Positions 2,961 through 38,480 of a stretch of DNA of 64,000 bases are shown piece by piece; the first letter of the stretch is position 1; each line of letters opens with the position of its first letter. Below the pieces are notes generated by a model. It ran no database searches. It was not told where the DNA came from and saw nothing but the letters and a program-made list of their open reading frames with translations. Both the position numbers and the translations under genes were made by a program. This DNA comes from Halorubrum sp. CBA1229 (lineage in GTDB: Archaea > Halobacteriota > Halobacteria > Halobacteriales > Haloferacaceae): contig NZ_CP054585.1 of assembly GCF_003721435.2 (NCBI RefSeq), forward strand, positions 1,116,001-1,180,000, written 5' to 3'.

Positions 2961-3011
2961 CCGCGTCCCCCCCGTCGCGGCCTTTTTGCCCCGTCAGCGC
3001 GGAGTCGACGT

Positions 3012-3458
3012 ATGGCGATCCCCTTCGATCCGCACGAGCTGGACCCCGAGGAGTACGGCGAGACGCGGACGACGCTGTCGACCGACCACGAGTCGGCCGT
3101 CGAGCGCGTCCGCGAGGTGTGCCTCGACGCCGGCTTCGGTATCCCGGTCGAGTTCTCCCCGTCCGACATGCTCAACGAGAAGGTCGACGCCGACCGCGAC
3201 CCGTACTACGTCCTCGGCGCCTGCAACCCGTCGATGGCGGACCGCGCGCTCGACGCGACCGACAAGCGCATCGGGGGGCTGTTCCCCTGCAACATGATTA
3301 TCTGGGAGGAGTCGCCCGGCGAACAGGTCGTCTACCACGTCTCGATCATGAAGATCGCGCGCCTCCTCGGCATGCCCGTCGACGACGAGGCGATGGACGA
3401 GATCATCGCCGACACCGGCGAGATGGTCGACGCCGTGTTCGAGGAGCTGGCGGAGTAG
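3012..3458 (+). CDS. DUF302 domain protein
   Basis: 148 residues. The DUF302 core is recognisable: the opening amphipathic strand and helix (LSTDHESAVERVREVCLDAGFGI), then YYVLGACNPSMADRALDATDKRIGGLFPCNMIIWEE, where the NPxMA..AL segment and the PCN turn are family hallmarks. The family is thought to bind small hydrophobic or redox ligands, sometimes next to thioredoxin-like genes. No such partner is adjacent here. Soluble, cytoplasmic. Confidence 0.85.
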   Translation: MAIPFDPHELDPEEYGETRTTLSTDHESAVERVREVCLDAGFGIPVEFSPSDMLNEKVDADRDPYYVLGACNPSMADRALDATDKRIGGLFPCNMIIWEESPGEQVVYHVSIMKIARLLGMPVDDEAMDEIIADTGEMVDAVFEELAE

Positions 3459-3483: not shown

Positions 3484-3952
3484 TTTATTTATAAATAGCC
3501 GGCGCGGTGGCGCGCCTCCGAGCGGCCGCCATCGGCGGCCGCGAAGGAGCCCGCGAGGGAGTCAGTCGCCGGAGCGAAGCGGAGGCGACTGACGAGGCTG
3601 GGGAGGCGTGAGGTGCGGTGCCGTGCGGGGTGGGACTCAAAGGGGCAGCCGTGAGCGGGGGGCAGGCGTTCACGAGAGCGGAGCTCTCGTGAGCCAATCA
3701 GAACGCTTTGCGTTCTGATGACGACGTAAGGACCGCAAGGAGGGAGCGGTAGCGACCGACTGAGGACCGCAGCGAGCGTGTCCCCCGCTCACGGTTGGGG
3801 CTTTGGAGGTCGTCGTCGCGGAGGAACGGATCACGTACAGCCGAACGACTGGTATTTTGGAGGTCGTCGTCGCGGAGGAACGGATCACGTACAGCCGAAC
3901 GACTGGTGGTTTGGAGGTCGTTTGCGTTCGTGTGCTCTCGGCTATTTATAAA
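3484..3952 (+). ncRNA. candidate structured RNA element, copy 1
   Basis: The element starts with the TATA-like run at 3484-3496. The conserved block GCCTCCGAGCGG follows at about 3515. Helix P1 pairs 3522-3530 with 3534-3542. P2 pairs 3561-3570 with 3584-3593 around a 13-nt loop. A fixed core (GAGGCTGGGGAGGCGTGAGG, then GTGGGACTCAAAGGGGCAG) leads to P3, pairing 3649-3661 with 3782-3794. Inside P3 lie hairpins 3670-3679/3683-3692 and 3698-3706/3710-3718. P3 is followed by GGGGCTTTGG, two 54-nt modules and TTTATAA at 3945-3951. The copy at 38111-38480 has the same plan with compensatory changes in P1, P2 and P3, which argues for RNA rather than DNA-level or protein function. Confidence 0.7.
3802..3914 (+). 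repeat. 54-bp tandem repeat, two units plus start of a third
   Basis: TTTGG marks the start of each unit at 3802, 3856 and 3910, a period of exactly 54 bp. The first two units are nearly identical; the third diverges after about 12 bases. The period is a multiple of three, so a repetitive open frame appears across it, but composition and context do not support a protein. The second element in this window has one diverged unit of the same length. Confidence 0.85.
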
Positions 3953-21541: not shown

Positions 21542-22401
21542 CCGTTCGACTCCATGTAGTAGAGCGCGCCGCCGCCAGCCGCGAGCAGCGCGACACCCCC
21601 GAGCACCGGCGTCAGCCCACCGCCGTCGGACGACCCGCCGAGCTGGTCGGGGACGGGTAGCGACTCCATCAGCGCGCCCATGTCCTCCTCGAAGGCCGCC
21701 CGCTGCTCGGCGAGCGCGTTGTTGATCTGTTCCTCCACACCGGCGTTCGGGTCCTCCTGAGCCTGCGCCCATTCGTCATCCTCGGGGTCGACGCGCCCGC
21801 CGCCGGTGACGTCGGATGCATCGCCGCTGTCGCTCTCCCAGTTAGTCGGGTCCTGTCGCGGGTCGTTGAGGTAGTCGTCGGCCTCGGACGAATCCTGCAC
21901 GTTATCGCTGCTGTCGTCGTCACCCCACCCGCTACCGCCGCTGTCATCGTCCACGGTCCCGCCGCCGGTCACGTCCTCGGAGTCGCCGCTGTCGCTGTCC
22001 CAATTGTCCGGGTCCTGACGCGGGTCGTTCAGATAGTCGTCCGAATCCGAGGAGTCCGTCACCGTCGACGTGCTCCCGCCGTCGTCGTCACTGCTGTCGT
22101 CGTCTCCCCACCCACTCCCGCCGCTGTCGTCGTCCACGGTCCCGCCGCCGGTCACGTCCTCGGAGTCCCCGCTGTCGCTCTCCCAGTTGTCCGAATCGGT
22201 TCGTGGGTCCGAATACTCGTAATCGCTGCTGTCCGTGACTGTCGAACCGCTCGACGTCCCGCCGCCGTCGTCGTCGTCATCACTCCCCCAGTCCGTGCTC
22301 CCGAAGTCGTCCGGGTCGTCGCTCACGTCGTAACTGCTCCCGCTGTCGTCATCGTCGTCCATCGCATCCGCGAGGTTGACGGTTCCGCCGTCGATCACCA
22401 T
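21538..22401 (-). CDS. repeat-rich acidic protein with C-terminal anchor
   Basis: 287 residues. Three near-identical units begin with DPR at residues 65, 126 and 180 and contain NW(E/D)SDSGD, then DVTGGG at 82, 143 and 197, and WGDDDSS. Outside them lies a helical stretch (EEQINNALAEQRAAFEEDM) and one C-terminal membrane helix (LGGVALLAAGGGALYYM). Such a chain could be an extended stalk projecting from the virion membrane. DNA of the units is also highly similar, so copy number may vary by recombination. Confidence 0.65.
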   Translation of the reverse strand: MVIDGGTVNLADAMDDDDDSGSSYDVSDDPDDFGSTDWGSDDDDDGGGTSSGSTVTDSSDYEYSDPRTDSDNWESDSGDSEDVTGGGTVDDDSGGSGWGDDDSSDDDGGSTSTVTDSSDSDDYLNDPRQDPDNWDSDSGDSEDVTGGGTVDDDSGGSGWGDDDSSDNVQDSSEADDYLNDPRQDPTNWESDSGDASDVTGGGRVDPEDDEWAQAQEDPNAGVEEQINNALAEQRAAFEEDMGALMESLPVPDQLGGSSDGGGLTPVLGGVALLAAGGGALYYMESNG

Positions 22402-36258: not shown

Positions 36259-36272
36259 TGGACTCGCGGGGA
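36259..36272. repeat. attR candidate within tRNA-Ala
   Basis: TGGACTCGCGGGGA covers the discriminator base, the 3' acceptor strand and part of the T stem, and is identical to 17024-17037. The integrated element therefore lies downstream of the tRNA's 3' end. Confidence 0.75.
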
Positions 36273-36330
36273 TTTGAACCCCGGGCCTCTTCCTTGCGAA
36301 GGAAGCGATCTGCCGCTGATCTACGAGCCC
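36259..36330 (-). tRNA. tRNA-Ala (CGC anticodon)
   Basis: 72 nt from G1 at 36330 to the discriminator A at 36259. Acceptor GGGCTCG pairs with CGAGTCC and includes the G3:U70 pair that identifies tRNA-Ala. The anticodon stem CTTCC/GGAAG closes the loop TTCGCAA, giving CGC. The T arm is CGGGG-TTCAAAT-CCCCG. No intron and no encoded CCA. Its 3' end is the attachment site of the provirus, which leaves the tRNA intact. Confidence 0.95.
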
Positions 36331-38120: not shown

Positions 38121-38480
38121 GCGAACGCAGTGCCGTCGGCGCGTGCCTCCGAGCGGTCGCCATCGGCGACCGCGAGGAGCGCGTGCGAGGGAGTCGGTGG
38201 TCCGGAGCGAAGCGAAGGACCACCGACGAGGCTGGGGAGGCGTGAGGTGCTGTGCGGTTGCGGTCGGGTGGGACTCAAAGGGGCAGTCGCGAGGACGAAG
38301 GCGCGCGACGCAAGGACCGCAGGAACGAGTGAAACGAGTGACGAGGACCGCAGCGAGCGCACCGAGTCCTCGCGACTGGGGCTTTGGTGTTCACCGTCGA
38401 CCCGTCAGTAACTGCGTATCACCGAGCGGTTGGGGATTTGGAGTGGATCACCGCCGATCCAGTATCAACCGTTTATAACT
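38111..38480 (+). ncRNA. candidate structured RNA element, copy 2
   Basis: TATA-like CTTAAATAA at 38112-38120 is followed by GCCTCCGAGCGG at 38145. P1: 38153-38161 with 38165-38173. P2: 38193-38203 with 38217-38227 around the same 13-nt loop as copy 1 (one base different). The fixed core is identical in sequence to copy 1 at GAGGCTGGGGAGGCGTGAGG and GTGGGACTCAAAGGGGCAG. P3: 38285-38296 with 38366-38377. Then GGGGCTTTGG, one 54-nt module (TTTGG at 38383 and 38437) and TTTATAA at 38472, 35 nt on. Helix sequences differ from copy 1 but pairing is kept. Confidence 0.7.

Follow-up and report, generated by a model that had tools for sequence, protein, structure and literature searches.

Tandem 3'-terminal units in a dispersed, structured and probably RNA-like intergenic element of haloarchaea

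Closest described systems and the two copies in the window

Bacterial chromosomes harbor dispersed intergenic structured repeats like REP/BIME, ERIC, RUP and NEMIS, which are present in many intergenic copies, form hairpins, are mostly inherited vertically and undergo concerted evolution. The haloarchaeal element presented here resembles these families in its many intergenic copies, its hairpins, its mostly vertical inheritance and its concerted evolution. However, it is archaeal and larger (~300-400 nt), it has an asymmetric multi-hairpin fold with invariant unpaired G-tracts, the conservation of its pairs is strand-specific, and it ends in 57-nt tandem tail units.

A MITE with an internal minisatellite, such as that of Porphyromonas gingivalis (PMC4596501), is likewise a dispersed non-coding element with a variable-number tandem repeat. 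In the haloarchaeal element, by contrast, the repeat forms the 3' end and includes one of the two strands of a conserved stem, and neither terminal inverted repeats nor target duplications were detected. Collections of intergenic sRNAs from Haloferax volcanii describe them, in the passages searched, as individual genes (PMC6490895, PMC3956466), and no comparable high-copy family appears in these passages. The element shares with these sRNAs that it is intergenic, non-coding and haloarchaeal. It can be classed with the dispersed structured repeats or RNA families. Rfam 15 matched only tRNA in the whole window, and with copy 2 as query and E-values up to 5 it returned only a chance match (17.6 of 70 bits, far below the gathering threshold). 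The open literature, searched by topic and with the conserved motifs as strings, does not describe the element, and a survey of candidate structured RNAs (PMC2864571) contains no word starting with "halo".

The window, which is the whole stretch of 64,000 nt that was analysed, contains two copies of the element (Table 1). The initial annotation had noted modules in steps of exactly 54 nt. Direct reading confirmed TTTGG at 3802, 3856 and 3910 in copy 1 and at 38383 and 38437 in copy 2 (steps of 54/54 and 54 nt), as well as the exits TTTATAA at 3945 and 38472, 35 nt from the last TTTGG in both copies. The array of copy 1 was also detected independently by Tandem Repeats Finder (3802-3921, period 54, 96% matches, score 226), and the P3 cassette of this copy is also present in the copies at G000 900705 and 1028761. 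Elsewhere in the window, short ORFs on the minus strand follow one another closely in a long series (~16000-36330) that ends at a tRNA-Ala(CGC) (36259-36330) and holds a 183-bp tandem repeat (21908-22272). It resembles an integrated element adjoining a tRNA and has no copy of the element family inside.

Table 1 Parts of the two element copies in the window
Copy	Feature	Position	Strand	Basis
1	TTTATAA box immediately 5' of the element	3488..3494	+	Halorubrum-specific feature
1	5' hairpin domain PA, G(C)GCGYGCC..hairpin..GGAG	3504..3553	+	compensatory pairs, alignment columns 9-61
1	variable second hairpin and conserved CGAGGCTGGGGAGGCGTGAGG	3562..3612	+	invariant alignment columns
1	conserved core GACTCAAAGGGGC	3634..3646	+	pattern matches, covariation
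1	CAAAG, 5' strand of the stem that closes P3; GGG of the 3x3 internal loop comes next	3638-3642	+	covariation
1	P3 hairpin with an inserted hairpin cassette that enlarges it (~3668-3723)	3646..3798	+	sequence, alignment fold
1	CTTTG, 3' strand of the closing stem (contains first TTTGG mark)	3801..3805	+	covariation
1	tail unit 1, 54 nt	3802..3855	+	sequence, Tandem Repeats Finder
1	tail unit 2, 54 nt	3856..3909	+	sequence, Tandem Repeats Finder
1	last tail unit to exit, 35 nt	3910..3944	+	sequence, family spacing counts
1	exit TTTATAA	3945..3951	+	sequence, family spacing counts
2	5' half (PA hairpin, second hairpin, GAGGCTGGGGAGGCGTGAGG)	38131..38260	+	sequence, alignment, fold
2	conserved core GACTCAAAGGGGC	38272..38284	+	pattern match
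2	P3 hairpin	38284..38379	+	MFE fold of 38131-38400
2	CTTTG, 3' strand of the closing stem	38382..38386	+	covariation, MFE fold
2	tail unit 1, 54 nt, without AGG after TTTGG	38383..38436	+	sequence, unit comparison
2	last tail unit to exit, 35 nt	38437..38471	+	sequence, family spacing counts
2	exit TTTATAA	38472..38478	+	sequence, family spacing counts

Structure, strand and distribution of the element family

A genome-wide pattern search for the core GACTCAAAGGGGC with at most one mismatch gave 99 matches in Halorubrum sp. CBA1229 and five for the reversed control. After three chance matches in coding sequence had been discarded, approximately 96 elements were counted. All of them are intergenic (0 inside called genes), and 96 of 96 are located on the 3.2-Mb contig and none on the 0.36-Mb contig (P ~3e-5). 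Most copies have a TTTATAA box, which is followed by the 5' hairpin domain, the variable second hairpin and CGAGGCTGGGGAGGCGTGAGG, and then by GGGACTCAAAGGGGCAG, hairpin P3, CTGGGGCTTTGGAGGTGTTCACCG and the tail units; some elements contain extra hairpin cassettes. In 78 of the 96 copies, a TATA-like box is no more than 50 nt away from the first conserved helix, and TTTATAA is found at both element ends in 47. With respect to the neighboring genes, 33 elements lie in convergent and 16 in divergent gaps. We only use these two counts, since the enrichment of convergent gaps over existing gaps (odds ratio 7) is inflated by the elements themselves, which lengthen the gaps. There is no orientation pattern along the chromosome (permutation p 0.52).

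The hairpin cassettes (GAGAGCGAAGCTCTC.., CGTTCACGAGAGC..GCTCTCGTGAGCCAATCAGAACGC.., CCCGCGAGCAACGCGAGCGGGAGCACGGAAGTCGC..) recur inside different elements at a few defined points, for instance at 3668-3723 of the window and in many copies such as those at G000 649212, 882693, 900705 and 2250951, as if hairpins had been inserted into hairpins. In copy L098 (G000:C1:2880999, around 2991-3128), the interior of P3 is inverted and reads as the reverse complement of what other copies have there. Both conserved flanks of P3 have the usual orientation, so that the stem is preserved.

The alignment of 47 compact copies with RNAalifold yielded 56 pairs, 31 of them with compensatory changes, which exceed those of the controls, as is characteristic of a structured RNA family. 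The stem of CAAAG (just before GGGG) and CTTTG, which closes P3, had not been chosen by RNAalifold but was spotted by eye in other genera. According to the covariation, TTTGG is the 3' strand of this stem, which closes P3 across a GGG/GGG internal loop, plus one G. The two strands covary almost perfectly (CAAAG/CTTTG, CGAAG/CTTCG, GAAAG/CTTTC and GGAAG/CTTCC). The first units of CAAAG elements contain CTTTG in 245 cases, CTTCG in three and CTTTA in four, those of CGAAG elements contain CTTCG in 10 of 10 cases, and in other genera GAAAG goes with CTTTC (34) and GGAAG with CTTCC (7), with zero exceptions. Across genera, the closing-stem pairs are GC30/CG8 and AU30/GC8 with 100% pairing; in alignment A3, 190 of 190 cells pair, including two doubly compensated pairs, whereas 0 of 500 shuffles match this result and slid controls are far off. 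The minimum-energy fold of copy 2 (38131-38400; z -4.9) also contains P3, the 3x3 GGG/GGG loop and the closing stem. A G-quadruplex core was considered and rejected: although the G-tracts are conserved, a quadruplex is chosen in only 7 of the 96 minimum-energy folds.

In the helices of alignment A1, G-U pairs outnumber A-C pairs by 74:4 (21 vs 4 pair positions), and the 5' hairpin domain PA alone gives 39:2; structure prediction somewhat favors G-U, and the helices rest mostly on Watson-Crick pairs. Such an asymmetry indicates selection of the structure in a single strand, for which RNA is the simplest explanation. The ratio is expected of an RNA from the plus strand, or of the plus strand as single-stranded DNA, but not of duplex DNA or of an RNA from the minus strand. 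Most likely, the element acts as a presumably transcribed RNA that is read from the 5' hairpins through P3 to the tail. It counts against this reading that the upstream TTTATAA is only 14-17 nt away from the first conserved helix, a short distance for a TATA box of archaea if transcription includes the entire helix.

A search with exact patterns found the element in 43 of 46 genomes of the genus Halorubrum and in none outside of it. The idea of a genus-restricted family was overturned by covariance models, which find elements across the order, and copy numbers based on exact patterns are therefore misleading. With model R1, elements were detected in 51 of 52 Halorubrum genomes and in 27 of 40 genomes from beyond the genus, and the multi-genus model R2 detected the core in 85 of 117 genomes of the order, which represent 36 of 48 genera. 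The copies per genome range from one to at least 64 with model R1, the high numbers being lower bounds because no more hits can be counted than candidates were scored (64 or 29), and a few genomes have one copy only; exact core matches range from 0 to 146 between genomes. In most haloarchaea, the chromosome carries the element, with copy numbers between one and over a hundred. In the genera G259 and G030, the P3 core is present without an evident 5' half. In other genera, two elements may be only a few hundred bases apart, in head-to-head or back-to-back arrangement, e.g. L300 (G074:C1:2364519 and 2364861), L286 (G259) and L319 (G026:C3).

Length, number and conservation of the tail units

The number of tail units per copy in this genome is one (30 copies), two (40), three (19), four (4) or five (3), and copies with seven and eight units occur in an 800-kb stretch of G153. 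A variation of the unit number between loci, as proposed in the initial annotation, is hence evident within this genome (1-5) and extends to eight units in another species. Head-to-tail units whose number differs between loci make the array a variable-number tandem repeat (minisatellite). It is not a CRISPR array, since the units are duplicated whole with their linker and drift together, and no array of identical short repeats was found.

A test for clustered spacings was suggested along with the initial annotation. In the 96 genomic copies, the spacings do cluster, but at 57 and not at 54 nt. The usual period of 57 nt accounts for 79 of 102 spacings and the 54 nt once taken for the unit length are a minority allele (13 of 102); the other 10 have different lengths. 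In 118 elements from other Halorubrum records, 57 nt was found in 95 spacings. The array is counted in whole units throughout the family, but the exact unit length varies, with a minority of non-57 lengths spread over 43-60 and rarely reaching 66 or 72 nt. The fixed exit is a family-wide property: 61 copies have a TATA-like box at the exit, and in 39 of them its distance from TTTGG is exactly 35 nt. This is the fixed place of the TATA/CGTATA position within the unit, and the full unit consists of TTTGG, 30 nt, TTTATAAAC or CGTATAGCC, and GAGCGGCTGGGGC. Judged by their sequences, the two 54-nt periods of the window look like independent 3-nt shortenings of 57, as copy 2 is devoid of AGG after TTTGG and copy 1 is shortened in the linker instead.

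Distinct 57-nt units of Halorubrum have 53% of their linker positions in common, yet the length is mostly kept, so that the spacing is indeed preserved while the sequence is not. The same period is found in Halobaculum (G026), where multi-unit copies show spacings of 57, 57, 57, 57, 56 and 72 nt (L291 twice, L318, L314, counted by hand, L308 and L307). The linkers of these arrays are unrelated to those of Halorubrum and contain no TATA box, and an upstream TATA-like box was not seen in the Halobaculum copies inspected. Hand counts for single copies elsewhere gave spacings of 51 (G081 L294) and 66 nt (G074 L301). The spacing is neither random nor explained by a tandem duplication confined to one locus, the two outcomes that would have spoken against a repeated unit, since the family is dispersed and its spacing is 57 nt in 79 of 102 cases. 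Duplication is the likely origin of the extra units, but it is not limited to the locus of copy 1.

When later units were compared within elements, the share of differing sites was 9% for the core CTGGGGCTTTGG, 26% for the 11 nt that follow it and 31% for the linker in a strict set of 20 pairs (19%, 35% and 52% in a relaxed set of 88 pairs). In the strict set, the extra units thus keep CTGGGGCTTTGG about three times better than their linkers. This difference is not a search artefact, since the core and the next 11 nt were used equally for recognising units. The lower divergence of the core (0.09 changes per site vs 0.26 and 0.31 for its neighbors) indicates that the extra units are under some constraint, though less than the first units, and on this sequence comparison they are not pure junk. 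However, changes that break the pairing with CAAAG (CTTCG 25, ATTTG 16) are more common in extra units than the pair-keeping TTTTG (9), and a role as spare 3' strand is therefore not clearly supported. A pairing switch involving the P3 side of the later units was dismissed, because this side tracks the 5' strand only weakly.

The tail units alone fold no better than shuffles (z ~0), which argues against the proposed tandem small RNAs. A stand-alone binding module, the other function put forward originally, does not agree with TTTGG being mainly the 3' strand of the stem closing P3 and with extra units that look like duplications of the 3' end.

Mobility, alternative explanations and significance

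Starting from the family, structure, strand, unit anatomy, variable unit number and constrained extra cores demonstrated above, we consider it probable that each 54-nt module is a tandem copy of the unit at the 3' terminus of an intergenic element that is dispersed, structured and probably an RNA. Hairpin P3, closed by CAAAG/CTTTG across the GGG/GGG loop, forms its core, and TTTGG is followed by a single-stranded tail of fixed length. Further units would arise by re-duplication of the G-tract, CTTTGG and the tail, probably by unequal exchange or slippage, and, as comparisons of orthologues and paralogues suggest, may evolve in concert with other copies through gene conversion. Weak selection may maintain the G-tract/CTTTGG motif and the 57-nt register of the extra units, which would either provide P3 with spare 3' strands or offer further docking sites to a putative binder of the core.

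At the site of copy 1, the element is flanked by the same two genes in relatives (upstream-flank identity 83-95%). Among 11 relatives with both flanks, nine have the whole element, one has the 5' half only and one has another gene instead; in the latter (L123, G355), ~1.3 kb resembling a zinc-type alcohol dehydrogenase gene replaces the element. A 400-kb stretch of G292 contains 16 comparable sites, of which 11 to 13 are filled and one is empty, with no trace of an element; the rest hold deletions or remnants. The orthologue is the best match at only 6 of 11 filled sites, which indicates that copies exchange sequence.

It is possible, although unlikely, that the element is instead the decayed form of a mobile element that was non-autonomous (MITE/PATE-like or retro-element-like). 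In this case, its hairpins would be former transposition signals and its tail units would be satellite-like debris. Its dispersal in high copy numbers that differ strongly between species (1 to at least 64 model matches, 0-146 exact core matches), the TTTATAA at both ends of 47 of 96 copies and the smaller number of copies in divergent promoter regions (16 vs 33 in convergent ones) agree with such an origin, and transposition as ssDNA would also favor one strand in the pairs. However, the terminal inverted repeats and target-site duplications typical of MITEs and classical IS-derived elements were not found: the direct word at an element's own ends measured 7.33, as in the swapped-end control (7.33), and the inverted word length was 5.7 vs 5.8. 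Moreover, sites are conserved between relatives at the flank identities given above, losses are internal deletions rather than clean excisions, with no clean empty site at three emptied loci, and the second replicon of this genome is free of the element. Plasmids carry one copy each in only four plasmid records, including NZ_CP134951.1, and no copy was found in phage records. We consider it rather improbable that the extra units serve as alternative 3' strands with a function of their own, so that the only 5' strand, CUCAAAGGGGCAG, would pair with one of N repeated CUGGGGCUUUGGAG strands in a register switch or copy-number dosage. The 3' strand is repeated in every unit, later units preferentially keep the core, the spacing is maintained despite diverged linkers, and later units contain CTTCG 11 and CTTTG 0 times in CGAAG elements but 184 CTTTG and 25 CTTCG in CAAAG elements. 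This match can also stem from duplication of the first unit, and the tolerated pair-breaking changes and the weak response of the P3 side to the 5' strand argue against a switch.

The modules are very unlikely to be small-RNA genes in tandem or binding sites on DNA, each with a TATA box of its own. Many Halorubrum units do end in TTTATAA, but the Halobaculum arrays have the same period without TATA, the unit tails are unstructured, and only one of 37 co-directional downstream genes (510130) lies at the distance of a leaderless promoter, so that the module TATA as promoter of the next gene was discarded. In that copy, L037 (G000:C1:510130), the exit TATA is located 30 nt upstream of an ATG, the distance of leaderless haloarchaeal promoters, and this element end was possibly co-opted as a promoter. 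Translation of the tail array into a repeated peptide of ~19 residues would explain unit lengths that are multiples of three but is also very unlikely. Among 63 distinct non-57 units, the length is a multiple of three in 45 and not in 18 (22 vs 15 of 37 linker clusters), with 45, 48, 51, 54, 60, 63, 66 and 72 nt among those seen. Two frames are stop-poor, and the lean to multiples of three is not predicted by duplication alone and counts against the tandem-copy reading preferred here. Nevertheless, codon periodicity is absent from the differences between neighboring units, which number 544/454/511 by offset mod 3. In every frame, the synonymous changes stay close to the expected number (largest z 2.4-2.5, frame CTG GGG CTT), and no frame is fixed across P3. 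A coding array was rejected, although the lengths had looked persuasive.

The boldest form of these ideas, an order-wide high-copy haloarchaeal RNA that carries its 3' strand in a variable number of 57-nt repeats, from which one 5' strand chooses its partners in a register or dosage switch set by tandem copy number, appears quite improbable. Of the 48 haloarchaeal genera sampled, 36 have the core, which often reaches dozens of copies in a genome, has no Rfam match and is not mentioned as a sequence in the 5.4 million open papers searched. The family would therefore rank among the most abundant unannotated RNA-like features of haloarchaea, organisms that are harmless and tractable; for Halorubrum lacusprofundi, PMC5052560 describes a genetic system. 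The tail array of the element provides a natural series of 1-8 units at known sites, in which the effects of unit number and of the 57-nt spacing are testable.
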